A DNA stretch of 64,000 nucleotides, taken from the NCBI RefSeq assembly GCF_963675165.1, contig NC_087377.1, forward strand, positions 13,512,198 through 13,576,197. Direction: 5' to 3'. The stretch's first letter is position 1, and the number at the start of each line of letters is the position of its first letter. The position numbers and the translations under genes were made by a program. Below are positions 2,124 to 53,802 of this stretch, one piece after another. The notes under the pieces are model-generated. The model worked only from the letters and a program-made list of their open reading frames with translations. It was not told the DNA's origin and ran no database searches. This DNA comes from Halichondria panicea. Taxonomy: Eukaryota > Porifera > Demospongiae > Suberitida > Halichondriidae.

Positions 2124-3220
2124 CTATAGGACAACTGCTGCAGCTGAAAGAATTACCCAGAACACGTACGCTGTTTTTTTACCTGCACGAATAAAAAAGT
2201 ATTGATGCCACGGTATGGTCACATTACATAGATAGATATACTCCAGATCTCAATAAACAGGCTTATATAGACGCGTAAATGGTATGTAATTATACTAACT
2301 TTTACTAGCTGTCTCTGGTACAGCTATCTCTGGTATAGGTATAGCTGTCTCTGGTATAGCTGTCTCTGGTATAGTTGTCTCTGGTATTCGAATGGTGCGA
2401 GTTAAAATTCCCTTGGTTGTCTCGTTACATTTGGACGTCACTATTATCCTTGCATGGACATCCACCACGGCATTAAATGATACAGAGAATATTGCTACTA
2501 AACTATTGCTTTCTGCAGAAATAGTGATGTATTCAGTTTCAGTGTTATTCTCAAATAACTGGACGGTGTAGTAACTAGGATCATAATTCCCATTATTGTG
2601 TGCCCAGCTAACTTCCACACTAGCAGTGTTATAGTCCTCTGGTCTGAAAAGAGATCCTATCACAGGAGAAGTCACATCTAAAGGAGGACCTATATAGTAA
2701 AGAAATATTAAATGACATTACTTTAACACCCCCTCCAATATTAAGCATTAAACCATATCCCCGATCGCCCTCTAGGGCAATAGTCTTAGCGGTGGATTAT
2801 GATTGGTTTTAATATAGACTGCAATTTACCTGAAGGTCTGTGCTGCTGGGCTTCAGCATTTTCAGAACTCACGCTACAAGTAATAAAAAACTCCGGCAAT
2901 GACGAGTTTAGCACGAACAGATCTGCTTCCATCAAAGGTAAAATAGTTGAAGTAAGATTTGTTTTAATAGGACCTAAAACATACTCAGTCCCCGGAGTGT
3001 CAAATCCACGCATATATGACAAAGGAAAGTCCGATGGAACATGCGGTGGTGCATAAAGGTTGATAACATCTCCCACTCCACTGCAGACATAAGTAACAAT
3101 CTCATCAGGACAAACATAAGTTTGGTTGGTTGATTGCAGAGAAGACCTAAGCATCGTCTGACTGGACACATTCACAATCAAACATGTACACACTCCTAGA
3201 AGTAGCACTGACCAAGTCAT
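2124..3220 (-). CDS. Small Ig-like + FN3 surface protein with hydrophobic C-terminus
   Basis: Three exons join in frame (3220-2830, 2689-2306, 2182-2124; 834 nt, 277 residues), with phase-1 introns. The first ATG that makes sense is at 3220 and opens a signal peptide (MTWSVLLLGVCTCLIVNVSS). Then comes an Ig-like domain with CPDEIVTYVC as its first cysteine strand and FFITCSV as its second, and an FN3 domain (VEVSWAHNNGNYDPSYYTVQ). A linker of IPET/TAIPE repeats follows. The last exon codes a hydrophobic segment (AYVFWVILSAAAVVL) that ends at a stop with no cytoplasmic tail, so the protein is either GPI-anchored or tail-less. It is divergent from gene A, 269 bp away. The last exon is short and is the weakest part of the model; without it the frame would run to a stop at 2295. 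The ligand is unknown. Confidence 0.65.
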
Positions 3221-3489
3221 CTGAACAAATAGCAAACCTATTATCTCATAGTTAGTCTATAGATCTACTTACCATTGGCATTGGTGTCATGCTCTTTATG
3301 GACGATCTGTTAATGTATCTTCTTTGCCAGTTGGCATTTGTTTTCACAAAGAAGCTGCTTTGCGGATGTATAGAATATTTTAAGGGATTGGTGGTCCGCC
3401 CCCAGCTAACCTGGCCCCCTTCCCCTTTTATACCACGTCACGCTTCTCGTTTAACTGCATGGGAGGACTGCTGAAACAGTATTAAAATT
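3221..3489. promoter_or_regulatory. Shared divergent promoter region
   Basis: Only 269 bp separate the start codons of the two divergent receptor genes. Facing gene A there is a TATA-like TTTTATACC followed by CACGTCA (CRE-like) about 55 bases before the ATG at 3490. The minus side has no clear TATA box. Joint control is inference from spacing. Confidence 0.35.
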
Positions 3490-6400
3490 ATGTCTCTCAA
3501 GTTAAACATCGACGTTGTAGTCGTGTTCTATTTTGCTTCTCTGAGTGCTATCACTGGTACATGGTAGATCTATAACAAGCTACTGAACAGTGTCTCTCAG
3601 ACAGTGGGACCAATACCATAGATCTATGCCAATACCGCGTCCATCAGTGCATGCAGTGGATACTTTGTTGCTATAGTTCTAGCATTAATTATACTGCTTT
3701 GAATTTTATATTAAATCTATCTGTTTTCTTTACAGCACAGTATTCAGTGAGTACGAGTTCGAGACTATATTAATTAACCAATACGTCTTTACTTTAATAC
3801 TACGTTCCTTCACAGCACAATATTCAGTGAGTGTGGAGAGACCATGTCCAATGGAAACAGTCACTTTCACTTGCACTGCTGCTGGAGATTCCTTGAGATG
3901 GATACCATCAGATACCTCAGCTCCCATCACCGTTCGCAACACCATTGATCTCAATGTATCACTAATGCAATCAGGTTACACTGTGAAACTAACTGCATTC
4001 AATGACACTAGCTTAACATCTACTCTATCAAGAACAGCAGAGAACGGGATCACTGTGATGTGTGTGGAGTTTGTCCCTGTAAGCAATATAAGATCTTCAA
4101 CAATTAATTTGGTTGGTGAGTTGCAGTCTTATCCATATACTAACTTTAATATAATTATATATAGATGCACCAGGACCACCTTCCATCATAAGACACTCCA
4201 CTCTGAGCAACTCAGCCAATAAAGTTAATGTGACTATTGGTTGGGACCTTCCTGCTGAGACTGGTGGTAGAGATGATCTCACCTACTCAGTGACCATCTC
4301 ACCTCCGGCCCAGCACTCTGCTACTGTCCTCACATCCACCTCTGTCACTGTGACTGCTCAATACAATGTGAACTACACTGTCGGTGTTGTAACTACCAAC
4401 TGTGCTGGGAACAGTACAATTGCTGGGTACAACTTTAGGATTGGTGAGTCGACAGTAATTTCGTTTTTGTATACATGTACACCACCGATAGTACCACATG
4501 CGTGCAGATTCGATTCCAATACATAATTCTATCCAATTCTCCTTGTATATCCAGTTTCCTGTGTCCTGCCTGCCCCTCCACTAAATGGAACTTTGCTCAA
4601 CACAAACTCTCACCTAACTGAGGGCTCAATCATTACCTTCCAGTGTGATCCTGGGTTTTCACTGGTGGGTGCAGCAACTACCACTTGTAACAACTCTGGT
4701 CTCTGGAATCCTGACCTGGCTCTATTGGAATGCTCATGTAAGTTTATTTGTGTCTTAATGTATGCTGTATATAACTATATTGACCTATATATAGACCCAG
4801 AAACTGGAAATGTTGCTGCTGTAGCTGGAGGTGTTGTTGGTAGTATAGTGATTGTGGCACTTATCATCCTGGTGGTGATAGTTCTCTTGGTGGTTCTCAG
4901 AGAAAAGAGAGAAGGTGAGTTGACACGTTCTCTCATCGTCTAACAAAATGTAATGATTATATTCACAGAGAGTGTAAGACTTAAATCAAACGACAGTATG
5001 GAAATGGATGATAAATTTGATGTAGGCTTTCTTAATTGTCATAATAGTGGAGTATTTTGTCTAGACTTTATACATGTGTTTTGGGGATTTCACAAAATTA
5101 TATGACATGCACACTACTTCTGCTTGCGCAGGATCGGAGTACATTGTACAGATCTGTTTCTGAAATGTAATTCTTTACTTTATCTGTTTCCCGACATCCC
5201 AGGCTACAGTGGAGCCGGTAATCTATGCTGCCCTTAGCTCCAGCCAGCCCCACAAGAAAAGCAACACGACTGCCACAGTGGACCATCATCAGGTGACCTA
5301 CGCCACTGTAGATGTCGCTGCCACCTGCAGGAAACAAGCAGCTAAAGCAGCCACCCTCCCCACCAGCCCAACAAGTGAGTCTGTTTGTGTTTGCTTCTGT
5401 CATTGTGGATGCATGGTTTTGATAGTTGTACAAGATAATGATAAAATCTTCTCATGCAGTGTATACAGGCTAATGCATATAGTCTGTTCCTGGTAGACAA
5501 TGTCAGAAGCCTCTATCAATTATAAGTTTCCCATTCTTGTGATTAACAAGAAGTGTACTGCATAGAGTTGTCTATTCCTGGTAGAGTTGTGTTGTGCCAG
5601 TATTTCTGGAAATTTGCCTCTAAATTGTGTGTTAGACCATAGATAAAGGAAAGAGAGATTGGAAACGAAAGTACACTTGAATGAACAACTGCGTTGCGAA
5701 TGTGGTTTAACCGAGGTTGCCTTATACGTTGCCAAAGAGACAAACCATAGACAAACGATAGTCTTACTCATGCAGTGAAGGAATTCTGCTTATAGCTTGC
5801 AGTTCCATACAATACTTGAGACCATATATGTGACACAGTACACTATACTTAGTTAGATAGCTCTAGCTATATAAGACTTTGTATCCCTTTAGCAACTTCA
5901 TGTATAACAATCGACATTTATTTTGTCATTTTCCAAGTGATACCTGCCAACAAGGGGCATTGTATCGAAGCTTTGAGAGGTTTGGAAGAGTCTATAGATT
6001 TGCTTTTAACCTTATTTTCCCCCATTTGGGCTGACAAAACGGTTAGTTTTCAAATTAAGCCACACCCCTGCACAAAAGTAGCCGTTTTGATTTCCGTTTC
6101 CAATCTCTCTCCTTTATGGTCAGACTTGTCAGTTCCTCATAATAGCTTTAGTAGGGGAAATGGTTTGTACCCCTAATCACATTACTGACAGTCTTGTTGG
6201 CTGTATCTATATTAAATTTGGATGATTATAGTTTGTCCATACTAGGGCTTCTGTCCACACTTAAAGCCTTGTTCAGCCTGAACAGAATAATTATGAGTAG
6301 CAAACACTTACAGTGTATGTTTACACAGAGCCACTCCCTCTCTAGAAAAAACAACGTGCAGCTCTAGACCAGCTCCTTTCTATGCCTGAGCCCTATAAGC

Positions 6401-9400
6401 CCTCTCCCAGTCACAGTGTCTCTATAAAGCAGCTCCTACCTCATCATTTTGTTTCTCATGCATGCAAGACATTTCTTTCATCCTTCATTCATCTTAAAAC
6501 ACCATTATTGTACTTTTACTGCATTGCCTGAGGTGCCAGTTTATGAACCATTACCTTGTAGCCCTGGGCCCCATGCTGAGGTGCCAATTATGACAGTTAA
6601 AATTAATGTTTAAATTTCCACTAGACAGACTACACATGACAAAAGTGTAGTATACCGCATAGCGCGAAATTTTCGAGGCACTTATATTTCGTGGATTGGC
6701 CTCTAAAAGCCATTTCGTTGCACAATGTTCGCGGAAGCCACGCCTTTAAATCTTGCACGTTATAGCAGGTAAAGAACGATTTTCGTGGACTTAATTTTCG
6801 TGTAGGATTGCTAACCCACGAAATCCACGAAAATTAAGCCCCTCGAAAATTTCGCGCTATACGGTAGGTGGGAAATAATATTAATTATAGATGCAGTACA
6901 AATGTTTGTCCAGTCCATGTGGATTGTTTCTGTTTCAGTGTCTTTAGAAACAACTTTTACAGTGTTTTTACTCCCATAAACATACAGCCTCAGCCTCGGC
7001 AGATGTGGACAAGCTCCTGGACATTGACCAGGCCTTGGTGCAGATCAGGTCAATGAAGCACAAGTGGAGGGAGCTGGCTGAAGCTGTGAGGCTGCCAGAG
7101 ACATTGATCAAACAGGTTTGTAATCCTATCTAGAGGCAATCATTGTATGCTGCGTGTATAAAGATATCAATTGCAAGTGTGAGCAGATGATATAAACATA
7201 ATAGATTCATCATCGAATCATTCCTTAATAGGTTGAAATTGTTGATGGTATGAGCTACATGTTCTTTTAGTAGACAGTAACTTTCTCATGCCCTGCTTTA
7301 CCATATTGTTTTGTCACACATTACTACTGGCAAAATAAAACTATACTTCATTTTCTCAACTATAGATTGAGGATTCATGCTGCAATGACAATGCTGGCTG
7401 CTTGACGGAGGTGATTAACCAATGGAGTTGCTCTGGACAACCAACGTGGAGTGAGCTGACTAACCATCTCAGTAAGATTGGGGAGGAGCAACTGGCAAAG
7501 GAACTCATGACTATCTACGACATTAGTGAGTACAGTCAGTCAGTGCATATATACACTAATTTTTCTGAATAATTATAATATTTGATACTCCAATGCTTTA
7601 TTAAGCCCTACTATTATCTAAGCACTATATAAGATTGATATTGTTACATAGTTGAATCGTTAATAAATTATGCAGTACATTTCATAGTTGATATTGTCAC
7701 ATAATTATTATACATATAGTTGTTGAACAGCCTAAATAGGATGCATTCTTAACTTGCCTATCAATTTATTTTGATGATGTCACTAACATCATGTATAATA
7801 ATTGTTATGATGCTTTCTTAAAAGGTGATGATCCAGTGTTGCAAACATACATTTTTTCCCAAGAGTGGGTTGTGTGTATAGTGATAGTGCATATGTTGTC
7901 CTAAGCCACCACATACATTCACTATGACTGACCTGTGGTATACCACCACAATTCATAGTGAATCAGAGTGGTGGCTTCAAAAAACATAATTGTACATGTA
8001 TGCTTCCTCGCTTCCTTGTACTTAGGGAACCACTATAGTATACACCTACGTACCTGACAGTGTCCACTGTGTGATTCATTTGCTGACATACCAACCTACT
8101 GTGTAGCTGCATGTCTCAGTTTATAGTATACTGTATATACGCAGACTATGTACGTATAGTTCACATGTTGAACAATCACCAACACGATGTACTTCACCTA
8201 TAGTCACCTTTAGCCCTTTGATATGTGGAGGTTCCAGAACAATATAATTATTGTATAGCGGGTAAATTTGGCGAAAAAGGCAATTGAACTATTATTGGTA
8301 ATTTTTAATTTGACAATCATTTTATGCTGCATGCATTGATCTCTTACGGAATACTGGGACTGAGTAGGAAGGCAAACATTGGCGAATTTTAATTTTGGCG
8401 ACCCAGCTCGCCTTGATTTGCCAAATTTCCAAATTTATACCCACTGTATACAGTATATCTAAGTTGTACAACATGCAAGTAGTTGTATTCTGCTGAATTT
8501 TAGAGAGCTGATCGATGTAAAGATCTGTAACTTTAGCTAGTTTTTCTATTTACGATACTAGAATGGTGAGAATCATTCCAATGACACGTACACTCTCTAC
8601 ACATACACACAGGTTGTCTCCCTGTGGAGTTGAGCTCTTGTTTGGCAGCACCAAAAACATTGCATAAGTACGACAAAACCTCTCCCCTCCCCTCTCAATC
8701 CCCCACAGTGACCGATGACAGCCCTGGACTACTAAATACACTTCCTCCGTCACGCCCTCCAAAACTGTAAGTTGAATACTAAAATTAATGTTCACCCATA
8801 ATTATGTATGTATGGTATAATAATTATATCTTACCATTACAATTGTTATGGCTGTTCCTTAGTACAACCAAAGTCTTAATACACCAACCTACAGACACTA
8901 GCAAAGAGGTGTTGGTGTCTGTAGGTTGGTGTAGTGTGTCCATGCATAAAGCAACTAGATTACTTATTTTTATATCAAATGCAAATGCACTGAGTGCCCC
9001 CGTAAGTATGAGTAACAAGCAATGCAAGGATACTAATATAATTATTAACCTTGCCAGTGCTTGTTATGAATCCCTTATTGCACGAGTATAGCCATACTAT
9101 TGATTGTTAATCGTTTGTGATGCAGTTTTAAGGACATTTTTAGCAGCAGTTTATTTCAGTAAAAAAAATTTGCCGCGGCCGTTATTCGAAAGTATGGTCG
9201 TCAAGGCAGTGATTACTGGTACGCGATTAATCACTGTACGAATCACAGTGAATAATAGGACAACATGCGATTTTCACTATAATTACGTCAAGACGCTGCC
9301 ATGTACTTGTGTATAGCTACATGATCCTTATTTCCTCTCCCAATACAGAACTGGTGAGATGGTTCCAGCCCGTCCCCCTAAACCAGCCCCTAACATCGAA

Positions 9401-9433
9401 CCCCCGGCACCTCCACACCCCTTTAAGCACTAG
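3490..9433 (+). CDS. Receptor A: Ig-FN3-sushi-TM-tandem ITIM-Death domain-proline-rich tail
   Basis: Hand-built exons: 3490-3556, 3816-4115, 4165-4443, 4555-4737, 4795-4914, 4969-5021, 5203-5374, 6988-7115, 7366-7525, 8709-8766, 9349-9433; total 1605 nt, 534 residues, all phases fit. Signal peptide (MSLKLNIDVVVVFYFASLSA); Ig-like domain (RPCPMETVTFTC ... ITVMCVEF); FN3 (TIGWDLPAETGGRDDLTYSV); sushi/CCP with four cysteines and W; transmembrane helix (VIVALIILVVIVLLVVL) followed by REKRE stop-transfer. The tail has VIYAAL and VTYATV, both fitting (I/V/L/S)xYxx(L/I/V), tyrosines 25 apart. Next is a Death-domain-like pair of exons (KWRELAEAVRLPETLIKQ, then TWSELTNHLSKIGEEQLAKE), then proline-rich exons (PPSRPPKL, PARPPKPAP) that could bind SH3 domains. 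ATTAAA follows the stop at 9448. The join across the 1.6-kb intron 5375-6987 rests only on phase and open frames; unspliced, the receptor would stop near 5494. The exons up to 5374 are firm. Confidence 0.68.
6653..6866. mobile_element. TACCGTATAGCG-type MITE, in an intron of receptor A
   Basis: Ends CCGCATAGCGCGAAATTTTCG and CGAAAATTTCGCGCTATACGG are inverted and flanked by TA, giving a roughly 210-bp palindromic insert. Relatives: 13213-13410, 19602-19840, 55250-55492 and a worn copy near 8255-8455. TA flanks suggest a Tc1/mariner-type mover; that is inference. Confidence 0.6.
8881..8932. repeat. Perfect 18-base hairpin in an intron of receptor A
   Basis: ACACCAACCTACAGACAC and its exact complement are separated by 16 bases. 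An imperfect larger hairpin lies at 7903-7978 (AAGCCACCAC ... GTGGTGGCTT). Both sit within the intron 7526-8708 or 8767-9348 and look like small transposon relics. Confidence 0.5.
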
Positions 9434-10535: not shown

Positions 10536-11671
10536 TATCAAAACTAAAAAACATTTGCAATGTGAACGTTGCTAGGATTGCCAGGAAAAGAAAAGCGCGA
10601 AAAAGCGAAGAAACAAGAAATTCGGCGAGTGCATAACTCCAATCCGTTACAACGTCATTCACATGTACTATTTCAAGAAATTTAAGCTATATATATACTT
10701 GTTTTGGTACTTTTCCTGGCCAATCCTTTCACATCAGTTGCAAGTAATAATAATTATTATTTAGTTTCACTGTCCAAAGGTGAATTCTTATTTAGTGCAA
10801 TGACTGTGCCCAACCTGTATTTTGATTCTAAATTCCTTATCAACAGTAGGCCACTTGACTGTACATGTTCATGACGTTGTAACGGATTGGAGTTATGCAC
10901 TCGCCAAATTTCTTGTTTCTTCGCTTTTTCGCGCTTTTCTTTTCCTGGCAATCCTAGCAACGTTCACATTGCAAATGTTTTTTAGTTTTGATTCCCTTTC
11001 TTTTTCAATACAGTAGTACATTAATGATAAGATAAAATTAATGTGACGTTGATTAATTTGTCATCGTCCTGTAATCTTGTTGAAGATAATATATAAGTGG
11101 TCGTTGGACAGAATTATATTATACTCCTCAATAGTCTCGATCCCAGGCCGCACTTCACTCAGGGAATTGAGGAGTTAGCCTCCTTCACCGGCCTTTTTTT
11201 CTCAATAATGAAAGTGAAATACCTATGAGGAACATCAAGAAGCAAGAGAAGTTAAGAAGAGAAGACAGGACTGGAATAAACATTTAGTATTTTATTCAGT
11301 CATTTATCTATGATAAAAATAATGGCAGCCATGTTTATACTGTAGATGTACTTCCAAGTGCAAAAGCATGGAGGCCTATGGTAGATCCAGTCAGTGCATA
11401 CATCTAGCATAAATAGCATACCTGAAGTGAGAGAATGGAGAGCTGAGCTGAAGAAAGGAGGTTTTGTGTTTATCGATGTCACAGCCACGCCCACCTCATA
11501 AGTTGCCATGCGTTGCTGTGGCAGTCATTTAAAGATGGCGGAATTGCGTAGGTAAGAAAAGTGGAGCCTGAGAGGTCACCTGCGTCTTGGAAGCGGACGC
11601 AATTCTGAGAAAAACGCCCATGCTCCGGTTTGTAGTCGACTAGAGGCTGTATCTAGAATCTTCTGAATATT
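10536..11671. repeat. 1.14-kb repeat, copy 1 (inverted copy at 51286-52433)
   Basis: The left 459 bp (10536-10994) is itself a palindromic element with inverted ends ATCAAAACTAAAAAACATTT and inner arms of about 130 bp. The rest includes a TAGTCTCGATCCCAGGCCGC element piece (11134 on) and a block ending CTAGAATCTTCTGAATAT. The whole unit returns inverted at 51286-52433 with few differences by eye. Similarity stops abruptly at both edges, at the terminal ATCAAAAC on one side and after GAATAT on the other. A weaker relative is at 46370-46520. No coding sequence was seen. Confidence 0.65.
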
Positions 11672-12429
11672 CACCTCCACTGTGGCCAGGCCTGTCCTGG
11701 TGACACTGTTGTCTTCACCTGCACTCTGCCTGGTGTTACGAGTGGTAGTCTTATATGATGAATGGCAATCGAGTTGTATCTCTGATTCTGAGTAAAATTT
11801 GCAAAGAAAAAAGTTTGATTTTCCCTGAAAAATAACATTTTATGTCCACCAACACCAAAAACTAGGTCAGTATAGTCACCTATAATTATACAAGTTAGCC
11901 TCAATCCTCTGGTGCAACATAATTACCCCCTTTGATCTAGCTAGCTGTAATTAGATTGAGGCTCTACCAGAACATGCATGTTTTATTGTTGGTTATAATT
12001 TATACAGTGTGTTCATATCATAATTATCTTCTTTTCCCTCACAAGTCCGATTGCTGACTTTAATTTATCAATGCCGTGCAATCTGACATCATTCAGGAGG
12101 TACGTTTATACAGTATAAGGTATAATATTATGCAGTATGGGTCCACAGTGACACTGAAAAATGTTCGAGGGTGAGGGTGAGGGGTGTATGTAGGGATAGG
12201 TATTTAATTTGGGGTTTCTAATGCTTTAAGCTACATACAGGTACACGTAGTTTGCTTATATTGCTATGCAGACACCTAAAAGATTGCAAAACTTACCAGC
12301 AATGCATCATATTAATGGATTTCCTTGTGTGTGTGCACATAATCAACAAAAGCAAGAACCATGATCACTTGCAGGAGGTGGAGAAAATGTAACAATTAAG
12401 ACTCCATTCTCAGCCTCACTCACAGGTCC
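11672..12429. other. Intergenic, no gene seen
   Basis: No coding exon, RNA gene or strong repeat could be supported here. Confidence 0.45.
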
Positions 12430-12745
12430 GTCTGCCAGCTAGTATAGAGTTGAACATGAATGCTGTACCGAAGACCGTGTACAAGTATGCATGACGGAGC
12501 CTCGCCCCCTCCCATCTCCTCTATCTCACATGTTGACATGCAAGGTGACAGCCCTGAGAAACTAAAGACGCTGCCTTCCTCATGCCCACCTAAACTGTAA
12601 GTTGAGTGCCACAAAACCAGATGCACCCATGTCTTATAGTACGTTTGTTGTGTATAGCACAAAGTTTTCATCAACGAAAAGGTGTTGGCTGGTATTTGGC
12701 TAACAATGAACCCCACGCCTTTCTAAACAATACACCAAGCACTAG
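12430..12745 (+). pseudogene. Decayed copy of the last exons of receptor A
   Basis: 12541-12596 matches the proline-rich exon 8709-8766 (GACAGCCCTG ... AAACT followed by the donor GTAAGTTG), but the acceptor is replaced by CATGCAAG and PPSRP is altered. Downstream, AAGCACTAG followed by a TGTGGTATG tail (12736 on) repeats the stop-codon region of the gene at 9425-9445. The intervening exon is missing most of its coding sequence. It is a fragment, not an expressed gene. Confidence 0.55.
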
Positions 12746-13212
12746 GTGTGTGGTATGAAATTATTTTTCTAAATTGTTTGCACAAAAAAATCAACTCGAA
12801 TTCATGGAGTTTGCAATCATTTGTCAGCTTACACATTTAGCATGTCAAGAGAGTTTATTCAAGTTAGGGCTTCTCCATTTCATTTGCATCACTTTACCAA
12901 TAATTATTGTTTGATTATCCAAGGAACATTTGTAGAATAATTGTCAAATAGCATCTACTGAGTTGATAGGCATGATCAAATATATATTAACACATAGCTC
13001 ATCAGACATAGCTTATTTTAACCATTGACCCCTAACTGTCTTTCTCAAGTCCAGCTGTTTTGTTATAATACCTCAAACTGTTGTATAGGCCTAAGAAATT
13101 ACCATGTATTATTATTGTTGAGTATAATTGTAGGCCCCAGTCTCACATGCATGTACCTGTAACTTGAGCTATATGAAGCAGCTATAATTATAGTGGATCA
13201 TCTAGATTGCTC

Positions 13213-20776: not shown

Positions 20777-21582
20777 GTGAGTCTTTGAATAATATCTACG
20801 TAGCTAATGACTTATAGGCGAACAACTCAAAGCCTAGGACGACTGCATGTACCTATATTAAGTCGTATATTGTATCATTCGGGATTCCTTTGTACATGTA
20901 CTAGTCCCGTATTAGAATATGATCTACGTGTGAGAAGTACCTCAGAGGTGGTAATCGTGTACTGCATAAAGAGAGTGCATAGGGAGGCGCACGGGCTGTT
21001 TTAAAAGTAGACCCTCGCTAATCGGAATAGAGCGGGACCAGACTCCATTCGAATGTATGAAATTCCGGATTAACAGATGTCATTAATCGATTATAAATAA
21101 TCGTTAACAAAGACACTTGTACGTGTACATGTATTATGAATATACATGTGACCTTTATTCAAGGTGCGTATTCTCAGCTGAAGTGATCCTTTACCAGGAG
21201 TAATGGAACAGGGTCCCTTAAGTAGAAAGCTAGAATTGTAGTTTGTTCTTTAGCCCCAGAACTTCTAAGACTCCAGGCTTCTTTGAGCTTTATGGGTTCT
21301 GGTTTTACCCTTACCTTTTAAGGCACATAACCTGTTATTGTCATGAGTTAAAGCGTACTCACTGCTATAGAGTCCCCAAGGCCATGATAGTGTTCATGGT
21401 TGGAGTGTTGTGAGTTGTAGCTTTCATTGCTTCCTCTAGTACTGGCTTGTAGTGCTGCCTTGAAGCTGTAGCATTGCCTACTGCTGTTTTAACAGTTAGT
21501 GCAGATGTTACCATCATTAGTGTTCAGCTTATGAGTTTTTGTTTCTCTCTCTCTCTCTCAACACACACACACACACACACAG

Positions 21583-21713
21583 CCTCAGCCTCAGTCCCAG
21601 CCCTGCCTGATGTAGACAAGCTCCTGGACATTGACCAGCATATCAGGTCAATGAAGCACAAATGGAGGGAGCTGGCTGAGACTATGAGGGTGCCAGAAAC
21701 AATGATTGAACAG
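21583..21713 (+). pseudogene. Death-domain first-half exon, orphan copy
   Basis: Acceptor after a CT/CA tract, then KHKWRELAETMRVPETMIEQ and donor GTACGTAC. It is near identical in design to receptor A's exon 6988-7115, with a few extra residues at the start. The second-half exon that should follow is absent; the next piece downstream is a HEAT exon at 21961. It may be an alternative exon, but an orphan fragment is more likely. Confidence 0.5.
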
Positions 21714-21854
21714 GTACGTACTCGAATCCATCAAGGGTCAAACATTGATAGTCATCAGGAGTACATGACATGCACATGTACTGTACATACATACATGTAC
21801 TTATAGTAGAGCAGCATAATTATCCACAAAATGCGGGAGTTTCCGTGCGTGGAA

Positions 21855-23400
21855 TACAAAATTAATGTGGATAAGCTAGCCAAATCCATGATATTTTTGC
21901 AGCACACATTTTTTAGCAGATCTATCTTGCTGTGATGTTGGTGCATGTGTGTGTGTGCAGGTGGACTTCTACATCTCCCAGAACCAGGCGGTCAACCATG
22001 CAGTGAGAGAGGCAGCCTGCATCTGTACTGCAGAGCTGGGCACTAAGGTGAGTGGGTGGTCATGTGATTATGCCTGTGTAATCTATATCCCCTAAAGTCC
22101 GGTATCATGTGTTCAGTAGCACACATGATTATAATAATTATATTTACACATTACAGCTCAACAATTCAACCCCTCCTCCACACACACGCACACACACGCA
22201 CGCACACACACACACACACACACATGCAGGTGAACAAGGATTGTCTGAAACCATACAGGGGACGACTGGTGAGTGTACTGTTGTAGTGTTTCCATGACAA
22301 TGTGTGGAGTTTTATGGTGTAGTGGGGTATGGGATAAAGGCGTGCTAGCTTATGTGTACAAAGTGTTTGTGATACGGGTACGTGTGCTTAGTAGATTATG
22401 TGGTAGATAAATGTGGGCCAGTGTACACAAGAGATCCCTCAAGTGAGCTTATGTGTTGTGGATGTAAATAGAATTGTAGAGTCATACGTAATAGCAGTTC
22501 TAATCTTGCCCCCCTTCCCTCCAGTTCAATATCCTGCTTGGAGTGCTGAGTGGTGTTAGACAGAATAATAAGTGTGTGTGGTGACCGAGTGTCCTCCCTC
22601 CTCCCCCTCTGTGCTGAGACACTCACGACACAGACACTATCCTCAACACATCAACCTCCTGGAGACACTGCTCAAACTGGTGAGATGGGTGATAAATGGA
22701 TCTCATTGTGTCATCGACATGCATGCACAAATCACTATTATAAGTTCAGTGCATTAATGTCCTTGCTTGATAACGTCCAGGCCAAAAAAAACACTAGCAC
22801 TTATAATTATTCGTGCACGCATGTTGAACGTCCTCTGATGGCGACCCTATAATTATGCTCTCTAAGTCTATAAAGTTACTTTAGTGATGTATGTTGTACT
22901 ATCGACAGCGTGGATTGAAATTTCTTAGACAGCTAAGTTCCTCAAAAGCTGACACTGTAAGAAACATTCGATACTTTTGAAGTAGGTTCCACATAACAAT
23001 TTCTTTGTAAATTGTACTGTGACTATACACGTATCTGAATGTGTTCAATGTTTCTCTGTTCTTATGTTTCTCTGTCTTTGTTTCCTACATTTAAGCTATT
23101 TCAATAGATAATGAGATCTGCATACTCCACTTATTACAAGTACTCCCCACCACATGCAGAGCAGTGACAATGCCTGGTGGTGCAGTCTGCTGGAGTGGAC
23201 TGTCTCACCTCACTCTGTCAGCTGCTAGGGAGAATGATCCTCAGAGGGAGAATAGAACAACACAATCCAATGTGAGTCTTCGAATAATATCTATATACGT
23301 TGCTACATGACTTAGGCTTGTATAACCAATATTATTATGACTTAAGCCAACAACTCAAAGCCTATAAGACAACTTTCAAATCATATGTAGTGTCATTCAG
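21855..23400 (+). pseudogene. HEAT/ARM gene fragments, tandem unit 1
   Basis: Pieces: 21961-22047 (VDFYISQNQAVNHAVREAAC, a clean HEAT repeat), 22230-22268 (VNKDCLKPYRGRL), 22525-22679 (FNILLGVLSGVRQ, then a TGA in frame; shifting one base reopens it up to INLLETLLKL) and 23160-23271 (MPGGAVCWSGLSHLTLSAAR). A CA tract precedes the acceptor at 22229. The block is repeated almost unchanged at 27540-29180. The stop shared by both copies means this gene was broken before it was duplicated. Confidence 0.55.
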
Positions 23401-24669: not shown

Positions 24670-26082
24670 TTACAGTCCTACAGGTCCGTACGCTTGGTTA
24701 GTATTCAGTTCAATCTCCTCTTTGGGTGACACCTCCTCATAAACAGGACCAGCTGGTGCAGTGGGTCCTACGTTAGCTTGCTCTTTAGCTGACGGGGAGT
24801 ACACATTCTTCTTATGAATGAACAAATAAATTATCAAGAGTCCCACAAATAATCCTATTATCGTGAACACAATTGCCGTGACAACCACGCTGATGGAGAC
24901 AGCTGCATCAAATCGACTCCCTTCAGATATGCTGGCGCAATTACAATTACAATTACATGGAGCAGCTGTAGTTGGTTCAAGTGGTGGGGATAGTGGAGCC
25001 GTGCAGTTTATTGGAGGGGCTGTGTAATAGAATTGTATAAGAATATCCATTACTATATATACAACCAAGAGCTTAAACTTACGAGTTGTGGGAGTGGGTG
25101 TGGTTAGTGATGTACACTCAATAGCCTCAGGGTCTGGACTCCACATCAGTGTACCCTCACATGTCACCATTGTAACAGCAGACACATACCCAACATCACA
25201 CTGGATGGTTACCGTGGATCCTGGCAATCTGCTGGTGGTTGGTCCAAAGGCTACATTTATGGGGTTAGTCAGCACAGGACAGCCGCCTAAGAGGATCAAT
25301 TGATACTGTGTGCAAAAAATATATATACTCACCTACTCTGAAGTTGTAGTCAGCAGTTGTACTGTTCCCAGCACAGTTGGTAGCCACAACACTGACAGTG
25401 TAGTCCATATTGTATTGAGCAGTCACAGTGACAGAGGTGGATGTGAGGACAGTAGCAGAGAGCTGGGCCAGAGGTGAGATGATCACTGAGTAGGTGAGGT
25501 CATCTCTACCACCAGTCTCAGCTGGAGGGTTCCACTGTACAGATACACTAACTTCATCGGCTGAGCTGCTCAGAATGGAGTGTCTGATGGTGGACGGTGG
25601 TCCTGGTGGATCTATGTAACTTATATTGTGAGATAACGGACGAGGCACTTATTGCAACTCACCAACCAATTGGATCATTGAAGATCCAATAGTGGTTAGA
25701 GTAGGCACAACCCCCACACAGGACACAGTGATCCCATTCTCTGCTGTTCTTGACAGATTAGATGTTAATGTAGTGTCGTTGAATGCAATTAGTTTCACAG
25801 TGTAACCTGAATGCATTAGTGGTACATTGAGATCAGAGGTGGAGAGGATATCGATGGGAGTAACATCTGACAGTACCCATCTCAAGAAATCTCCAGCAGC
25901 AGTGCAAGTGAAAGTGACTGTTTCCATTGGACATGGTCTCTCCACACTCACTGAATATTGTGCTTTATGAAACATGCAGCAATAAGGAAATCTATAATTG
26001 AATAGTCAGTCTTACCAGTGCTGAAGCCACCCAGAAAGCAAATCAGAAGAACTCTAATGAGCTTTATCTCTATTAGTGTCAT
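24670..26082 (-). CDS. Receptor B: Ig-FN3-sushi-TM with YEEV/YGPV tail
   Basis: Five exons (26082-26016, 25962-25663, 25611-25333, 25286-25083, 25019-24670) join in frame with phase-1 introns: 1200 nt, 399 residues. Signal peptide (MTLIEIKLIRVLLICFLGG), Ig-like domain (PCPMETVTFTC ... ITVSCVG), FN3 (VSVQWNPPAETGGRDDLTYS), sushi with cysteines at CPVL, IQCD, VTCE, IECT, a threonine/proline stalk with a CNCNCNC run, one transmembrane helix (VVVTAIVFTIIGLFVGLLII) and a tail ending PVYEEVSPKEEIELNTNQAY. YEEV resembles a Src-family SH2 docking site. The Ig-FN3 part is close to receptor A, while the tail is unrelated. The Ig exon acceptor TTTCATAAAG is weak; a second acceptor (TATTCAG) 12 bases on keeps the frame. 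It looks intact and functional as a surface receptor; ligand unknown. Confidence 0.8.
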
Positions 26083-26539: not shown

Positions 26540-26648
26540 ATGAAGAGTTGCCCTGGACGACCAACATGGGAGGGAGCTGGGAGACCATCTCAGTAAGATC
26601 GGAGAGGAGCAACTGGCAACAGATTTCCTGACACTATCTGTGAGGCTG
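26540..26648 (+). pseudogene. Death-domain second-half fragment
   Basis: The DNA resembles receptor A's exon 7366-7525 (GACGACCAACATGGGAGGGA, then CTCAGTAAGATCGGAGAGGA) but has small insertions that shift the frame, and the first third is lost. It ends at CTGTGAGGCTG before GTGAGT. Confidence 0.5.
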
Positions 26649-27539: not shown

Positions 27540-27910
27540 TGCGTGGAATACAAAATTAATGTGGATAAGCTAGCCAAATCCATGATATTTTTGCAGCACA
27601 CATTTTTTAGCAGATCTATCTTGCTGTGATGTTGGTGCATGTGCGTGTGTGCAGGTGGACTTCTACATCTCCCAGAACCAGGCGGTCAACCATGCAGTGA
27701 GAGAGGCAGCCTGCATCTGTACTGCAGAGCTGGGCACTCAGGTGAGTGGGTGGTCATGTGATTATGCCTGTGTAATCAATATCCCCTAAAGTCCGGTATC
27801 ATGTGTTCAGTAGCACACATGATTATAATAATTATATTTACACATTACAGCTCAACAATTCAACCCCTCCTCCACACACACGCACGCACACACACACACA
27901 CGCACGCACG

Positions 27911-30249: not shown

Positions 30250-31668
30250 TCATAGTCCTACTGGTCCATACGCCTGGTTAGTGTTCAGTTCAATCTCCTC
30301 TTTGGGTGACACCTCCTCATAAACAGGACCAGCTGGTGTAGTGGGTCCTACGTTAGCTTGCTCTTTAGCTGACGGGGAGTACACATTCTTCTTATGCATG
30401 AACAAATACATTATCAAGAGTCCCACAAATAATCCTATTATCGTGAATAGAATTGCCGTGACAACTACGCTGATGGAGACAGCTGCATCAAATCGACTCC
30501 CATCAGATAGGCTGGCGCAATTACAATTACAATTACAAGGTGCAGCTGTAGTAGGTGGTTCAAGTGGTGGGGATAGTGGAGCCGTGCAGTTTATTGGAGG
30601 GGCTGTGTAATAGAATTAATATCCATAATTATATATACAGCCAAGAGCTTAACTCACGAGTTGTGGGAGTAGGTGTGGTTAGTGATGTACACTCAATAGC
30701 CTCAGGGTCTGGACTCCACATTAGTGTACTCTCACATGTCACCATTGTAACAGTAGACACATACCCAGCATCACACTGGATGGTTACTGTGGATCCTGAT
30801 AATCTGCTGGAGACTGGTCCAAACACTCCATTCATTGGGTTAGTCAACGTAGGACAGTTGCCTGAGAAGGTGTTGACACTGTGTGTCAAAAATAAAACTC
30901 ACCAATCCTAAAGTTGTAGTCAGCTGTTGTACTGCTCCCAGCACAGTTGGTAGCCACAACACTGACAGCGTAGTCCACATTGTATTGAGCAGTCACAGTG
31001 ACAGAGGTGGATGTGAGGACAGTAGCAGAGAGCTGGGCCAGAGGTGAGACGGTCACTGTGTAGGTGAGGTCATCTCTACCACCAGTCTCAGTAGGAGGGT
31101 TCCACTGTACAGGTACACTAACTGCATCGGCTGAGCTGCTTGAAATGGAGTGTCTAATGGTGGACGGTGGTCCTGGTGGATCTATGTAACTTATAGCAGT
31201 GATTATAATTATAGAGACGATAGACGAGACACTAACTGCAACTCACCAACCGATCGGATCGTTGAAGATCCTATAGTGGTTACTGGCACAAACCCCAAAC
31301 AGGACACAGTGATCCCATTCTCTGCTGTTCTTGAAAGAGTAGATGTTAATGTAGTGTCATTGAATGCAATCAGTGTCACAGTGTAACCTGATACAACAAT
31401 GGGTACGTTGAGATCAGAGGTGGAGAGGATACTGATGCTAGTACTATCTGAAGACACCCATCTCAAGGAATCTCCATTAGCAGTGCAAGTGAAAGTGACT
31501 GTTTCCATTGGACATAGTCTCTCCACACTCACTGAATATTGTGTTTTATGAAACATGCAGCAATGTAAGGAAATCTATAATTGAATAGTCAGTCTTACCA
31601 GTGCTGAAGCCAGCCAGAAAGCAAATCAAAAGAACTCTACAAATGAGCTTTATCTCTATTAGTATCAT
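30250..31668 (-). CDS. Receptor C: tandem duplicate of receptor B
   Basis: Exons 31668-31599, 31531-31247, 31181-30903, 30861-30658, 30602-30250 give 1191 nt, 396 residues, in frame. Domain order is as in B: signal peptide (MILIEIKLICRVLLICFLAG), Ig-like, FN3, sushi, transmembrane, tail with PVYEEVSPKEE and QAYGPVGL. The upstream Ig acceptor used by A and probably B is lost (AAAG has become AAAA), so this model uses the TATTCAG acceptor 12 bases downstream, which keeps phase 1. The Ig domain differs from B mainly in one stretch (SSDSTSISILSTSDL against LSDVTPIDILSTSDL). The FN3 exon has the same length in A, B and C (279 nt). Confidence 0.78.
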
Positions 31669-32109
31669 CTCAAAATTAATTATTTCTTGACAGTTAGAAG
31701 GTTGCATTTCAATGTTGTGATTGCTGACTAGACAACCTGTTGTTTACTTCCTTTATATTCGTAGCTTCTTTTAACTACAATTCCTGCTGTTTCCGTAGAC
31801 AGTATATGAATAGTTTTTGTTGATACAAAACCAGACAGCACTCTACCGGCCTTATAGGCTTTGCTAAAAAAATTCCTATCCTGGATTTTTTTTCTCATGG
31901 TTTTGCCGCCTATTATTCTAATTAATTAAGCTATAATAATATTTATATGCTATGTATAATTGTGCTCAGAAATACTAGATAGACATATCAGTCATATGTC
32001 CATCAAAATAATAATGATTGCGACCCTTATCATAGATATCCTTGTCTCACTTGATGTTTATTGTATAGTGGATCTTTACCTTTTATTTTTTCTCAGCTGC
32101 TTGGCTGAA

Positions 32110-33315
32110 ATGATTGGCTAATGGATGATGAAGAGTTGCTCTGGAAGACCAATCTGGAGGGAGTTGGCAGACCACATTAAGATCGGAGAGGAGCAACTGG
32201 CAAAGGAACTCATGACTATCTGTGAGGCCAAGCAGTCAGTACATTAGATAGATATTGGCATGTGGTAGATCTAGTGGTAATGAGTATAAAGTGGGACTAT
32301 ATACAAGCTATTCATTCTAACATAAGTACTGTTATATCCCCTGCAGCTATGAGAGAGTTCCTGGTCCTCCCCTCAGAGGAGGGACACAACCACACCTACC
32401 CACACTGCTACCAGCCATGCGGTAATAAGTAATTATGACATCAGATGCTTTGGGTGAACATTTTATTTTCTATTTTTAAAGGCCCTCCTCCCTGATTTTA
32501 GAAAAGAAGAGCTAGCATATTTACCTAACAGCAACCCCACTCTTTTAAATAAGAGCTGTTGCCACTAACCAATTCCTCATCATAGAGTCTCGTGACTAAC
32601 AGCACTGCTCATGATTAGTTGTACAGCTCAGTAATTCAGTAATCCACCCCCCCGGCCTGTACTGATAATTTGATGTGTACTACATGTAGCTGTTGATGTT
32701 GTCAAGATTGTTACTTGTTTGCCCATTATTTCTTTTCTGTATAATAGAGAAAAGTTGTTCTCATTATTCTTACATTGCGAAAACAATGTACACTAAACAT
32801 ACATGTACCCAGTAAGAAACTGTGACAGTATTATGGGACCTAGCTAGCTGGCTGTGGTTTTATTTTGTAATCCTGTTACATTGTGCTGCAGTAATTACCA
32901 TTGTTTTGTCACACCTTATACCTGCCTACTATTTTTCTTTTAATTACAGTGCCTACTAAAATTATGATTTTTCAGTGGCGCACAAAATAATAGAACAAGA
33001 AAAAACTGTTTGGCGCTTATATTAGAGTCTGATACAAGCTAACATGCTCTGAAGAAGATGAGGTTACAGCATGTAAAAAGAGCTTTGTGGTCACCCATTT
33101 TCATACAGCCAGGTTGACCAGCCCAAAGCCCCCAAAACATGTTCTGCAACCACCTTTTTATTACGATCACTGTTAGTCTAGAGGTTCCACTGTGTCAAGT
33201 AATTATATACCCACCTGTTATATCCCCTCCCCCCTGCAGCTACGAGGGAGTTACTGGTCCACCTCCCCTCAGAGGAGAGACAACCACACCTATCCACACT
33301 GCTACCAGCCATGAG
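32110..33315 (+). pseudogene. Death-domain second-half and two HEAT first-exon fragments
   Basis: 32110-32222 is a Death-domain second-half fragment (ATTAAGATCGGAGAGGAGCA...). 32347-32421 and 33240-33315 are two versions of one HEAT exon; the second reads ELLVHLPSEERQPHLSTLLP with donor ATGAG/GTAATA, the first has deletions that break it. Their neighbours do not continue a gene. 32430-33230 otherwise shows nothing. Confidence 0.5.
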
Positions 33316-40463: not shown

Positions 40464-40545
40464 GTTATTATTACAGTGTCCCTTTTCTCTGAAGGTTCTT
40501 TGTTTATTGTTCCACTGTATTTCACTATCTCTCCCTCCCCCTCAG

Positions 40546-41490
40546 GTACTGTGTGACTGAGGGTGTGAGGCTCTACTCTCAGGAGACCTGGAGGGTGGTC
40601 ACACAGACCAGAGGAGTGCAGCTGGTAGAGCAGCACATCCACAAAATGCGTGAGTTTCCGTGCGTGCAATACAAAATTAATGTGGATAAGCTAGCCAAAT
40701 CCACGATATTTTTGCAGCACACATTTTTAGCAGATCTATCTTGCTGTGATGTTGGTGCATGTTGTGTGCAGGTGGATTTCTACATCTCCCAGAGCCAGGC
40801 AGCCAACCATGCAGTGAGAGAGGCAGCCTGCATCTGTACTGCAGAGCTGGGCACTAAGGTGAGTGGGTGGTCATGTGATTATGCCTGTGTAATCTATATC
40901 CCCTAAAGTCCGGTATCATGTGTTCAGCAGTTCCACTGTGTCAAGTAATTATATACCCACCTGTTATATCCCCTCCCCCCTGCAGCTACGAGGGAGTTCC
41001 TGGTCCACCTCCCCTCAGAGGAGAGACAATCATACCTACCCACACTGCTGCCAGCCATGAGGTAATAATTATGTCCATCAAATAATGGTATGACCCTTTA
41101 TCAAAGCTACGACCTTTTATTGTAGTGTTTATTGCCTAGCAGATCTTTACCGTCTGTGTTGTTTGGCTCAGTGTGATTATTACTGTCCACTCTAGAGTCT
41201 TTACCTAAAGTGGTGACTCATTTCATTACCTACTTTGAATGGTTTCATAAGATACATGTGCCGTTATGTTGTTTTTAATCATACTACCCACTCAATTATA
41301 TCTCATTTTCTCCACTAGATTGAAGATTTATGTTGCAATGATAATGCTAATTGCTTGACTGAAGTGATTGATTAATGGATGATGAAGAGTTATTCTGGAC
41401 GACCAACATAGAGGGAGCTGGCTGATCATCTCAGTAAGATCAGAGAAGAGCAACTGGCAAAGGAACTTAAGACCAGCTACGAGATTGCAG
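40546..41490 (+). pseudogene. HEAT/ARM and Death-domain fragments right of the transposon
   Basis: 40546-40648 (YCVTEGVRLYSQETWRVV, donor spoiled to ATGCGTGAG), 40772-40858 (VDFYISQSQAANHAVREAAC, clean), 40986-41061 (REFLVHLPSEERQSYLPTLL, clean but out of order) and 41319-41490 (Death second half with TTGATTAATGG, an in-frame stop). A mixed set of fragments rather than a gene. Confidence 0.55.
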
Positions 41491-42414: not shown

Positions 42415-44080
42415 GTGGACTTCTACATCTCCCAGAGGCAGGCAGCCAACCACGCAGTGAGAGAGGCAGCCTGCACCTGTACTGCAGAGCTGGGCACTAA
42501 GGTGAGTAACCTACGTACTGGCTGACAGGGTTTCATCTAGGATTAAAAGTTTGGGGGGGAAGGTTTACCACGCCGCAAAAAGTCTGGCCACTCCCACATG
42601 TGTTGACCACACACCCTATTACATGCTAGTGCATCACAGTAGAGCTAGTTACATATATATTGCACATCATAGACAGTACTATTGTGATGATGTCATTATT
42701 ATACACACATTTTGGGAGAGAAGGTTCACCCCAGCCCCCCCCCCCCCCCACTAGATGAAACTCTGGCTGAATAACGAGTTGTTTGATTGATTTGAGATTT
42801 GCATATCCCCTAAACTCGAACTACATGCACCTTGTCGTTATTTCTCACTTGTACCCAAGCATATTTAGGAATCCACCCTCCCCCACACACAGGTGAGCAA
42901 GGATTGTCTTAGACTGTATGCAGGTGTACTGTTAGAGTGTACTGTTAGAGTGTTTCCATGACGATAACTGGCCAGCCCGTGAGAGATGGTTAGTGTCAGT
43001 CAAGTAAATCATCTATTCTTTATTTTACTCACCCCTTTGCCGCCTGTCTGGCCTGTGGTAACTTCTTGGGACACTTCCCAGATGAGTGCAGGTAAGAATT
43101 ACACACCCTAACTATTAAACTACATGTGTACATACTTATGACAATATCCATCAGTTTCAATTGGATTAAGCACTTGCCTTCTGGTATTTTTTTAGTTTTG
43201 ATCAGTTGTACTTTTAGTATTTCCCCCTCTCCTCAGATCGTATAGCTGCATGGATGAACTGATCCCACTGTTCTCTGCCAATCTTGAAGACAGCATACCC
43301 TCAGTTAGACAAGGGACAGCTGCTGCTCTCACCAGTGTCACCAAAGCCTATGGTGAGATACTGTACAGACTAGAGGCCGTGCTGATAATTTGAGGTGTAT
43401 ACTGTCAAAATTGTTTGCATGCTCAGCTCATTATTACCTCTTCATTGTGTGTGGAGAATAGTCGTGCTCTTTATTTACTAGCTGACCGTGTGAAACAACA
43501 CTACAAGCATACATGATTGTATATATGAAAGCCCCATTAAGAAACCTTTGAAGATACTAGCTGCACTGTATTATGGGACCTAATAGATATCTAGCTGTAG
43601 TTAGTCTAAAACCATACATACTAGCAGTACTCTGAGTCTCAAGTTGGCACTAGAGCATATAACTGACTGTGCCGGTTGTATTTTGTAATCCTGTTACAGT
43701 TTAGCTAGTATTTTTTTTGTTTTGTCTTTGTGTTCTGTAACAGATCATCAAGTTGTGGGTGACCACTGTACTACATTCCTTGTCTTATCTCCATCTTGTA
43801 CTTCACTTGTACAGCACTCAAAGTTTCTCTATCTCTTTCTCTAACCTTGTAAGCTGCTGCTTTCGTAATCAATATTGTTGTACATTGAGCACTTAAAGCT
43901 CTTTCGACTATTTCACTACCTGAACAGCTGTTTGAAAGAGTGTGCAATACACTTTGATAAGAAGCAAATTATATTCGTTCTTCCCCCTCCTTCTTCAGCT
44001 CCACTGGTATTGATCCTGGACCGGGTGTATTTAAGGTGGTGCATCGTCCATGACAACCCAGACCAGCAGATGTACTCGTG
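42415..44080 (+). pseudogene. HEAT/ARM gene fragments in near-natural order
   Basis: 42415-42501 (VDFYISQRQAANHAVREAAC), 42893-42923 (shortened VSKDCLRLYA), about 43034-43091 (ACLACGNFLGHFPDEC, acceptor lost: CTTTGCC instead of an AG), 43237-43352 (MDELIPLFSANLEDSIPSVR ... TSVTKAYG, a clean HEAT repeat) and 43999-44080 (LVLILDRVYLRWC ... QQMYSC). The order matches what the other copies imply, but missing and spoiled exons argue against a working gene. 42510-42890 has no exon and a poly-C run at 42736. Confidence 0.55.
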
Positions 44081-44084
44081 TGCC

Positions 44085-45212
44085 AGTCTACTTCTAAAAC
44101 TATCTCGTGGACTGTCCTGACGATACTTGCCTTCAGCATTTGATTTATCATATTCTGGGGCAGCTATCGCTATTTCAATCTCACGTACATTCGGTAGATA
44201 TGTTTCAGCATTTCCTCTCTGAAGCCGATTACCATACCTTAAATCAGCGTTCGGGTTACAAGGAACCCAAAATGCCATACAATAACTCGAATTGTCATTC
44301 TCCCAATAAGCAATTGTGTTATCAACAGTCTTCTGTCTATATGTGATATTGCAAACCGTGTTCCAATTTAATCCACCTTCAATATCTTGTATTATTCCAT
44401 GTGTTGATGACAATTTTCCAAAATATCGCTTATCAAATACCGAAAGGTCATTGTCCTCCCACTTCCAGTACGGTAAGCCAAAACTAGTATTGTCTAGCAC
44501 TCTTTGAAGTGCTCTTTCCAAAATCAGCAGATATGTTCTGTGCCAGACTAGAAAATTTGGCCCAGAATGTGCAAAGTCAACATTTATACCGCCATTAAGT
44601 GTTTGACATGACTTCGAGGCATCTCGGGACACGTAGTTGTGTATGTAGACAAGGAAATCATATGTAGAAACATCTTACAGTGTAACTGTGCCAGATACAG
44701 TTAGTGGCTCTTCAATAACAACACTCCAATAACCCATTTCACTCTTTAGCATGAGCATACCATTCTTAACGTTTTGCTTTTCAGAATCCGATAGACTGCC
44801 AAAACTTCTTCTTTGAACGACTTGTTTTTTCATTCCACAATTTTCTCCTGACCAGCCAAACGCACATTCATTGCAATCGACTCCATAGAATTTCCCCGAG
44901 CAAATACAAACATTTTCAAACACCATCGTCGGCCAAAGATATCTGCTATCAATCCTATTTCCTTTTTCCGAAACATTGGATGTATTTTTTAGAACTGCGA
45001 CAATTTCTGGATCAGCATCAACAGATTGACGCTCTGCTTTTGATTTAACGTTCACACAATCTCCTCTACCATTACAGTTGTTCGGACAACATACTTTACT
45101 CTGGAGGTTCTGGAGTGTTGCAAACTGCCGGAAACTGTGCAAAAGTGCACCTTAGAAGGCACAACAAAATAGTTAGTGCCCAAAGCACTTGAAGGGGGCT
45201 TAGAGATGCCAT
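44085..45212 (-). pseudogene. Tyrosinase-like pseudogene, truncated, one frameshift and one stop
   Basis: Single-exon reading from ATG 45212: a signal peptide (MASLSPLQVLWALTILLCLL), a cysteine-rich EGF-like part (CCPNNCNGRGDC ... CICSGKFYGVDC ... GWSGENCG), then RRSFGSLSDSEKQNVKNG and the CuA half of a tyrosinase with all three likely copper histidines (YIHNYV, DFAHSGPNF, LVWHRTY) and PYWKWEDND. Lesions: one extra C near 45105 (GAACCTCCAG) shifts the frame, TAA at 44677-44675 interrupts VTL/DVSTYDFLVY, and the CuB half is missing because the sequence changes at about 44085 into the antisense of a HEAT exon fragment. Lack of introns suggests a retrocopy or an ancestrally single-exon gene. It cannot make an active two-copper enzyme. 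Confidence 0.75.
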
Positions 45213-52433: not shown

Positions 52434-52598
52434 TATTATATAGTGGGTGTACTCCAAAACTACATTAATTCGGATTTCCTGTATAATTATAGTGACACCC
52501 ACTATTAGAATCTAAGTGAGGTGTTTACGTGCCAGAATCGTCCTAAATATCTCCCCTACACTCACCATGTACAGTCTCAGACAATCCTTCTTCACCTG

Positions 52599-53137
<539 letters not shown>

Positions 53138-53802
53138 ATGTGTGCGGGCGTGTGTGTGTGTGTGTGCATGTTTGGAGGGGGATATTGCTGAGCTGTTTAA
53201 GGTGTAAACATAAGTATAATAATGTGCTACTACTAAAGAAGTAGCCATGACGGAGTTTAGGGGATTATATGTAAAGCTCCAGTAGGTTACACAGGCACCA
53301 TTATCACATGACCACCCACCCACCTTAGTGCCCAGCTCTGCAGTACAGATGCAGGCTACATTCCTCTCTCTCACTGCATGGTTGGCCGCCTGGCTCTGGG
53401 AGATGTAGAAGTCCACCTGCACACACACATAAATTATACACACATCAACATCACAACAACATTGAGTAATAATAGGATAACGTAAAATGTATTTTAAAAT
53501 AGTCCACATATTTTTGCACAAGATCGTTAGTCTAAGCACACCGTCCATAAGCATCTTTTTAGGCACTCAAGTAACAATCTAACACTTTACAAAAGATTGC
53601 AAAAATCCCATCACTCACTCACCACTTTGTGGATGTGCTGCTCTACCAGCTGCACTCTCCTGGTCTGTGTGACCACCCTCCAGGTCTTAAGAGTAGAGCC
53701 TCACACCATTAGTCCCATGCATAGTACCTGAGGGAGAGGGAGAGATAGTGAAATACAGTGGAACAAACAAAGGACGTTAACAAAGAACCTTGAGAAAAGG
53801 GA

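Follow-up and report, generated by a model that had tools for sequence, protein, structure and literature searches.

Can a single animal receptor carry both inhibitory tyrosine motifs and a Death domain? A locus in a sponge genome raises this question. The initial annotation of a 64,000-nucleotide stretch of contig C1 (C1:13512198-13576197; hereafter the window, whose own numbering is used unless a contig or Mb position is given) had proposed one receptor that joins an Ig/FN3/sushi ectodomain to tandem ITIMs, a Death domain and a proline-rich tail. We re-derived the gene model and searched the 131-Mb assembly, which comprises 39 contigs and whose gene content is that of an animal, for relatives of the gene and for candidate signalling partners.

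The focal gene occupies positions 3490-9433 on the plus strand and has eleven exons. All introns are GT-AG, the phases are consistent and the exons total 1605 nt including the stop, for a product of 534 aa; the coordinates, phases and length first annotated were all correct. Exon 1 (3490..3556) contains the start codon and, judged by eye, a signal-peptide-like segment; it is 95% identical in a twin gene described below. The predicted ectodomain follows, with an Ig-like domain in exon 2 (3816..4115), a fibronectin type III domain in exon 3 (4165..4443) and a Sushi/CCP domain in exon 4 (4555..4737). A second, short form of the start of exon 2 is present at 3725-3760, upstream of the real one and with its own acceptor (CAG followed by CACAGTATTCAGTGAGT). 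In exon 5 (4795..4914) we recognized by eye a transmembrane helix, the hydrophobic stretch VAAVAGGVVGSIVIVALIILVVIVLLVVL followed by REKRE, and exon 6 (4969..5021) adds the juxtamembrane segment ESVRLKSNDSMEMDDKFD, which has the same sequence in the twin.

The tandem ITIM exon is exon 7 (5203..5374). VIYAAL (5218..5235, Y342) and VTYATV (5293..5310, Y367), whose tyrosines had been placed 25 residues apart, both reappeared in our translation, and each is a cytoplasmic (I/V/L/S)xYxx(L/V/I) motif of a predicted transmembrane protein. The two halves of the Death domain are encoded by exon 8 (6988..7115) and exon 9 (7366..7525). Exon 10 (8709..8766) encodes the tail segment PSRPPKL (PxxPxK, RxxK), also present in paralogues, and exon 11 (9349..9433) ends the protein with the proline-rich PARPPKPAP and a TAG stop. 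The last exons had been described as PxxP rich, and PSRPPK and PARPPKP can indeed be read in them. Exon 11 was found in 8 of 15 gene copies, the focal gene included; the compared sequence of the remaining copies ends short of it.

How secure are these domain assignments? The Sushi domain scored 31.6 bits against Pfam, above the cut-off. The FN3 exon matched Pfam fn3 in all four window copies, and its profile matched FN3 domains in the PDB. For exon 2, Pfam returned just PKD (E 0.042) in one of four exon copies, and the top result of a PDB profile search was antibody light chains at E 0.064. Because neither sequence search gave a firm Ig match, we based the Ig call on the predicted fold: of five Ig models one could be used, and it has an immunoglobulin superfamily fold that appears nearest V-type among Ig subtypes. 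The exon pair had originally been called Death-domain-like, with a Pfam search suggested as a check. Both exons matched Pfam Death, and the domain scored 26.3 bits when scanned alone (cut-off 22.6) and 21.5 bits, slightly below that cut-off, within the whole focal protein. Death was matched in 12/12 family regions scanned (12 of 19 regions), and the family Death profile found FADD as its best PDB match, at E 5.7e-6, with RIPK1 at 0.0074. SH3BP4_C was a weaker candidate for the same regions, matching 8/12 (best 7.3e-4) compared with 12/12 for Death. We also rejected Pfam SIT, the SHP2-interacting adaptor, which matched residues 294-355 at 20.2 bits, below its cut-off of 27.6 and mostly over the membrane helix. 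No TNFR family appeared among the nine Pfam matches up to E 1, a range in which we looked for a TNFR cysteine-rich ectodomain. We conclude that the predicted product is almost certainly a type I receptor composed of an Ig domain (perhaps nearest V-type), FN3, Sushi, a transmembrane segment and two ITIMs, followed by a Death domain of FADD type and a proline-rich tail that resembles SH3-binding sequences.

Are the ITIM exon and the Death exons parts of a single gene? Searching with the cytoplasmic region gave 109 exon matches (the best 150 of 307 candidates were scored), 16 of them off C1. Among the matches listed, 19 cover the ITIM exon, and six of these report a stop. At 13.633 and 13.720 Mb the match overruns the exon and the exon itself is open; the other four have TAA in the matched stretch, one of them in a match that overshoots the exon by about three residues. 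Excluding the four matches that report TAA, we examined 15 copies, the focal gene among them. In every one, both Death exons lie downstream of the ITIM exon on the same strand, are stop-free and have phase-compatible AG/GT sites at or near the homologous borders; both tyrosine motifs are retained as well, with the tyrosines 23-26 residues apart. The agreement in phase is partly built in, because our splice-site script chose the nearest site that had the required phase, 1 between ITIM and Death and 0 within Death. The ITIM exon starts at the exact expected position in 15/15 copies and ends there in 13/15 (three codons earlier in two), while the acceptor of the first Death exon shifts by -3 to +9 nt. 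For the copy at 12.75 Mb, the ITIM-Death intron sequence lies outside the data compared. Across the copies examined, identity to the focal gene is 66-90% for the ITIM exon and 80-93% for the first Death exon.

Two distant members on the minus strand (C1:14427116-14431205 and 14505120-14509241) have the order ITIM-type exon (VSYAMV), one Death exon, another ITIM-type exon (VDYTTV), another Death exon. Their phase-1 sites are compatible, though in one of the two no acceptor in phase was found for the leading Death exon. That these members double the module, and that all 15 copies keep the ITIM-Death pair, bears out the original claim of a single receptor, and we regard it as strongly supported that the ITIM and Death exons form one predicted gene.

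The cassette also looks constrained. Within the motif hexamers, 10/12 positions are invariant, compared with 9/45 elsewhere in the ITIM exon; the Fisher p of ~1e-4 is a guide only, since the copies are related. Pooled pN/pS over the 15 copies is 0.39 for the ITIM exon and 0.19 and 0.27 for the Death exons. The twin lies at C1:12.29 Mb, 1.2 Mb from the focal gene, and keeps the complete set of eleven exons. The two proteins are 89% identical, and dN/dS between the genes is 0.39 overall, 0.30 for the ITIM exon and 0.25 for the Death exons. By these ratios, the ITIM-Death cassette evolves under purifying selection. At least 15 copies are open across the ITIM and Death exons. Not all copies can be functional, because four of the 19 ITIM matches report TAA and the copy at 13.630 Mb has a stop within its FN3 exon.

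What lies in front of the cassette is more variable. Two copies, at 12.998 and 13.630 Mb, share just 33-39% identity with the focal gene in the Ig/FN3 exons and 39-50% in the membrane exon, compared with 86-88% in the ITIM exon. Judged by these identities, the cassette sits on differing ectodomains. Comparison restricted to matches of at least 60% identity gave dN/dS values of 0.56 for Ig and 0.68 for FN3 (10 copies each, both tail types), as against 0.26, 0.20 and 0.20 for the cassette exons (15 copies). On these estimates, the Ig and FN3 exons evolve faster than the cassette exons.

Related ectodomains also occur on a different tail. Two sister receptors lie on the minus strand of the window. 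Receptor B (24.67-26.0 kb) has Ig and FN3 exons with an intron between them at 25334..25963 and a tail at 24673..24816; receptor C (30.25-31.5 kb) has the same arrangement at 30904..31541 and 30253..30396. By tblastn, the Ig and FN3 exons of both are ~70% identical to those of the focal gene. Both tails read YEEV...QAYGPVGL in translation (HKKNVYSPSAKEQANVGPTAPAGPVYEEVSPKEEIELNTNQAYGPVGL, with C differing once), and neither contains the ITIM consensus. The YEEV/YGPV tail is present in at least 150 exon copies (the best 150 of 292 candidates), and all scored ones are on C1 at 11.25-14.93 Mb. A search with the whole focal protein placed 98 of the 100 matches listed on C1; the other two fall on C32, a small contig. 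Hence, genes with ~70% identical Ig/FN3 exons on either ITIM-Death or YEEV tails are clustered within 3.7 Mb. This is a paired-receptor arrangement, because shared ectodomains carry few ITIM tails and many alternative tails. The initial annotation described a single receptor and missed that the gene belongs to a very large 3.7-Mb receptor cluster. The YEEV motif resembles a Src-SH2 site, and from this likeness we infer that the YEEV tail would be activating; going by the motifs, the two tails would signal in opposite directions. At 14.43 and 14.51 Mb, the distant members have GPVYSEVS before the second ITIM-type motif, a weak match to the YEEV tail (E 0.88) that hints at a common origin of the two tail types.

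The window holds further fragments of the family. The second Death exon survives as relics, interrupted by stops or a frame break, at 26546-26636 (+), 32098-32220 (+), 41319-41486 (+) and 54208-54352 (-). Those at 26546 and 32098 look like passengers of a duplication unit, because they lie head-to-head upstream of YEEV-tailed genes, an arrangement also seen at locus L011. At 11640-12750 (+) there is a degenerate paralogue that includes a piece resembling exon 10, and at 21582-21715 (+) an orphan yet open first Death exon. The head-to-head neighbour of the focal gene (2295-3256, -) has Ig-like and FN3-like exons without a convincing Pfam match; by eye, it appears to be a diverged cluster member.

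Apart from the family, the window contains a tyrosinase domain at 43919-44674 (-), ankyrin repeats at 47636-48202 (+) and a long CA repeat at 52509-53566. An exon reading VDFYISQ..HAVRE..CICTAELGT recurs at ~21960-22050, 27655-27740, 40493-40906 and 53330-53420 and belongs to a repeated gene or element. Rfam at gathering thresholds gave no match in the window. The sole COX1 match in the assembly is a nuclear fragment at C1:5280527-5280718 (+) with two in-frame TGA codons and a peptide that looks sponge-like; a DNA pattern for the silicatein active site gave no match.

Does the genome encode proteins that could read such a tail? On C3 (8404573-8406287, minus strand), SH2, SH2 and tyrosine phosphatase domains occur in that order, and the second SH2 region has PTPN11/SHP-2 as its best PDB match (E 1.7e-55). 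Tyrosine phosphatase domains are greatly expanded in general, with 176 exon matches across the genome; of those listed, most lie on C4, at many places between 0.04 and 7.6 Mb. A FADD-like gene, DED then Death domain, is located at C7:1623085-1623814. Among PDB entries with a passing stretch, its DED matched caspase-8 first (9.3e-8) and FADD next (7.9e-6); a designed repeat protein headed that search by whole-sequence E (3.4e-8), but no stretch of it passed. The DED-DED-caspase arrangement is found at two places, C10:859830-862894 (+) and C10:2921362-2923384 (-). Because SHP-2-like, FADD-like and DED-caspase genes are all present, it is plausible that the focal receptor carries both inhibitory and death signals. 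That such partners are encoded does not prove that they bind the tail.

How might such a receptor work? We see an even chance that, in a paired complex for self-recognition or immunity resembling the fester co-receptors, the ITIM-Death receptor is the inhibitory/execution arm. Engagement of the ectodomain would lead Src-type kinases to phosphorylate Y342 and Y367, and the SHP-2-like phosphatase could then bind both phosphotyrosines through its tandem SH2 domains. The bound phosphatase would silence neighbouring YEEV-tailed activating receptors. Clustering of the receptor, in turn, would allow the Death domain to seed a FADD-type platform with caspase or NF-kB output, and a single receptor would thus govern restraint as well as cell fate. 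How these events are ordered, and any gating of the Death platform by SHP, is a guess; the ITIMs might brake the Death output or act alongside it. The fuller proposal, that the inhibitory arm doubles as executioner by coupling phosphatase recruitment and death-platform assembly in cis within a large, fast-evolving self/non-self complex, is one we advance only tentatively.

Perhaps the Death domain is just a clustering or trafficking module, as in some NF-kB or kinase adaptors, and gives no death signal, which would leave a plain inhibitory checkpoint receptor? Scaffolding of signals other than death is a common role of Death domains, and this genome is rich in Death-domain exons, with at least 148 matches. 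However, the family profile matches FADD more strongly than it does the other Death domains listed, RIPK1 among them, and the genome encodes FADD-like and DED-caspase genes; we consider a scaffold without death output unlikely, though a serious competitor. The tyrosine motifs might instead be non-inhibitory and recruit other SH2 partners (PI3K, Grb2 or Src kinases), making this an activating or survival receptor. ITIM-type sites bind other SH2 proteins too. The ITAM/ITIM-like motif of CD95 at Tyr291 is described in PMC4572867 as a docking site for SH2 proteins. Yet VxYxx(L/V) occurs twice at the conserved 23-26-residue spacing in 15/15 copies, which suits a tandem-SH2 phosphatase of the kind the genome encodes, and a non-inhibitory role seems to us quite improbable.

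It could also be that the locus makes two transcripts, a receptor that ends after exon 7 and a separate soluble Death product, with the fused form minor or absent. Intron 7 is long (1613 nt), and exon 7 stays open for ~40 codons into it before a stop. Still, phase-compatible donors and acceptors at or near homologous borders in 15/15 copies, and the same order in the distant members, make such a split very unlikely; Death exons in another transcript are improbable because ITIM-Death order, strand and splice phases are kept across copies. Broken relic exons of the family share the window, and the focal copy might itself be a non-functional member of a duplicating array. Against this stand its intact 534-aa frame and the dN/dS with its full-length twin, and we give the idea scarcely any weight. 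The reading we prefer remains that of an inhibitory/execution arm.

If the coupling in cis is real, the family would form a class of checkpoint-death receptors: at least 15 genes carry the cassette, and two distant ones have the ITIM-Death module twice. The sponge host puts a clustered, two-tailed receptor complex and SHP-2-like plus FADD/caspase partners in one genome near the base of the animals. ITIM/ITAM-linked recognition in Botryllus and Hydractinia leaves the route from recognition to cell death open, as far as the accessible parts of PMC12065747 go. In the sponge that route would be directly testable, because one predicted receptor tail holds both ITIM and Death modules.

The initial annotation had called the mix of inhibitory and death modules unknown among described animal receptors. 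In that breadth the claim needs qualification: an ITAM/ITIM-like motif surrounds Tyr291 of CD95 (PMC4572867), SHP-1 binding by death receptors is the subject of a title cited there (Daigle 2002), and Ig-Sushi receptors with ITIMs in Botryllus and ITIM-bearing candidates in Hydractinia are published. What stands is narrower. Among the matches listed in open PMC literature, no title or abstract start names a receptor that combines a Death domain with tandem ITIMs outside it.

Several vertebrate families resemble the focal receptor in part. KIR, LILR and SIRP place related ectodomains on opposing tails, and vertebrate paired receptors and PD-1/BTLA carry tandem tyrosine motifs ~25 residues apart for SHP phosphatases. 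To our knowledge, KIR, LILR, SIRP and PD-1/BTLA are without a Death domain and have mostly Ig-only ectodomains; opposing tails and motif spacing are therefore common ground, whereas the Death domain is found in the focal receptor alone. Death receptors of the Fas/TRAIL type are membrane receptors with a cytoplasmic FADD-type Death domain, a TNFR cysteine-rich ectodomain and a tyrosine motif that lies inside the Death domain, not in a tandem-ITIM exon of its own. The focal receptor shares the Death domain with them but has Ig, FN3 and Sushi in place of TNFR repeats, and by its predicted domains it is not a member of the TNFR-type death receptors. UNC5 netrin receptors combine Ig with a cytoplasmic Death domain in a thrombospondin/ZU5 architecture and, as far as we know, have no ITIM pair; Ig and Death are common to both, while thrombospondin/ZU5 marks UNC5 and the ITIM pair marks the focal receptor.

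The invertebrate parallels are closer in genomic arrangement. In the sections of PMC12065747 at hand, the fester co-receptors (FcoR) of the fuhc locus of Botryllus schlosseri are a clustered multigene type I family with V-type Ig and Sushi domains, whose tails carry an ITIM or a hemITAM/other tyrosine motif and form inhibitory and activating partners; Hydractinia allorecognition (Alr) candidates likewise bear ITIM/ITAM-type motifs. ITIM-type motifs are thus common to Alr and the focal receptor, whereas those sections mention no Death domain in Alr, and the main text of PMC12065747 contains neither the term "death domain" nor "fibronectin". The focal cluster and FcoR have in common clustered Ig-Sushi type I receptors with ITIM or other tyrosine tails. 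FcoR, from a different animal group, carries two additional Ig domains of C2 type, and the same sections name no FN3 for it, whereas in the focal gene model FN3 and Sushi separate the membrane from the Ig exon, and no other Ig exon is present. On predicted architecture, the focal receptor is analogous to the fester co-receptors and not a member of them, and we file the ITIM-Death receptors as a putative variant of clustered ITIM/paired receptors.
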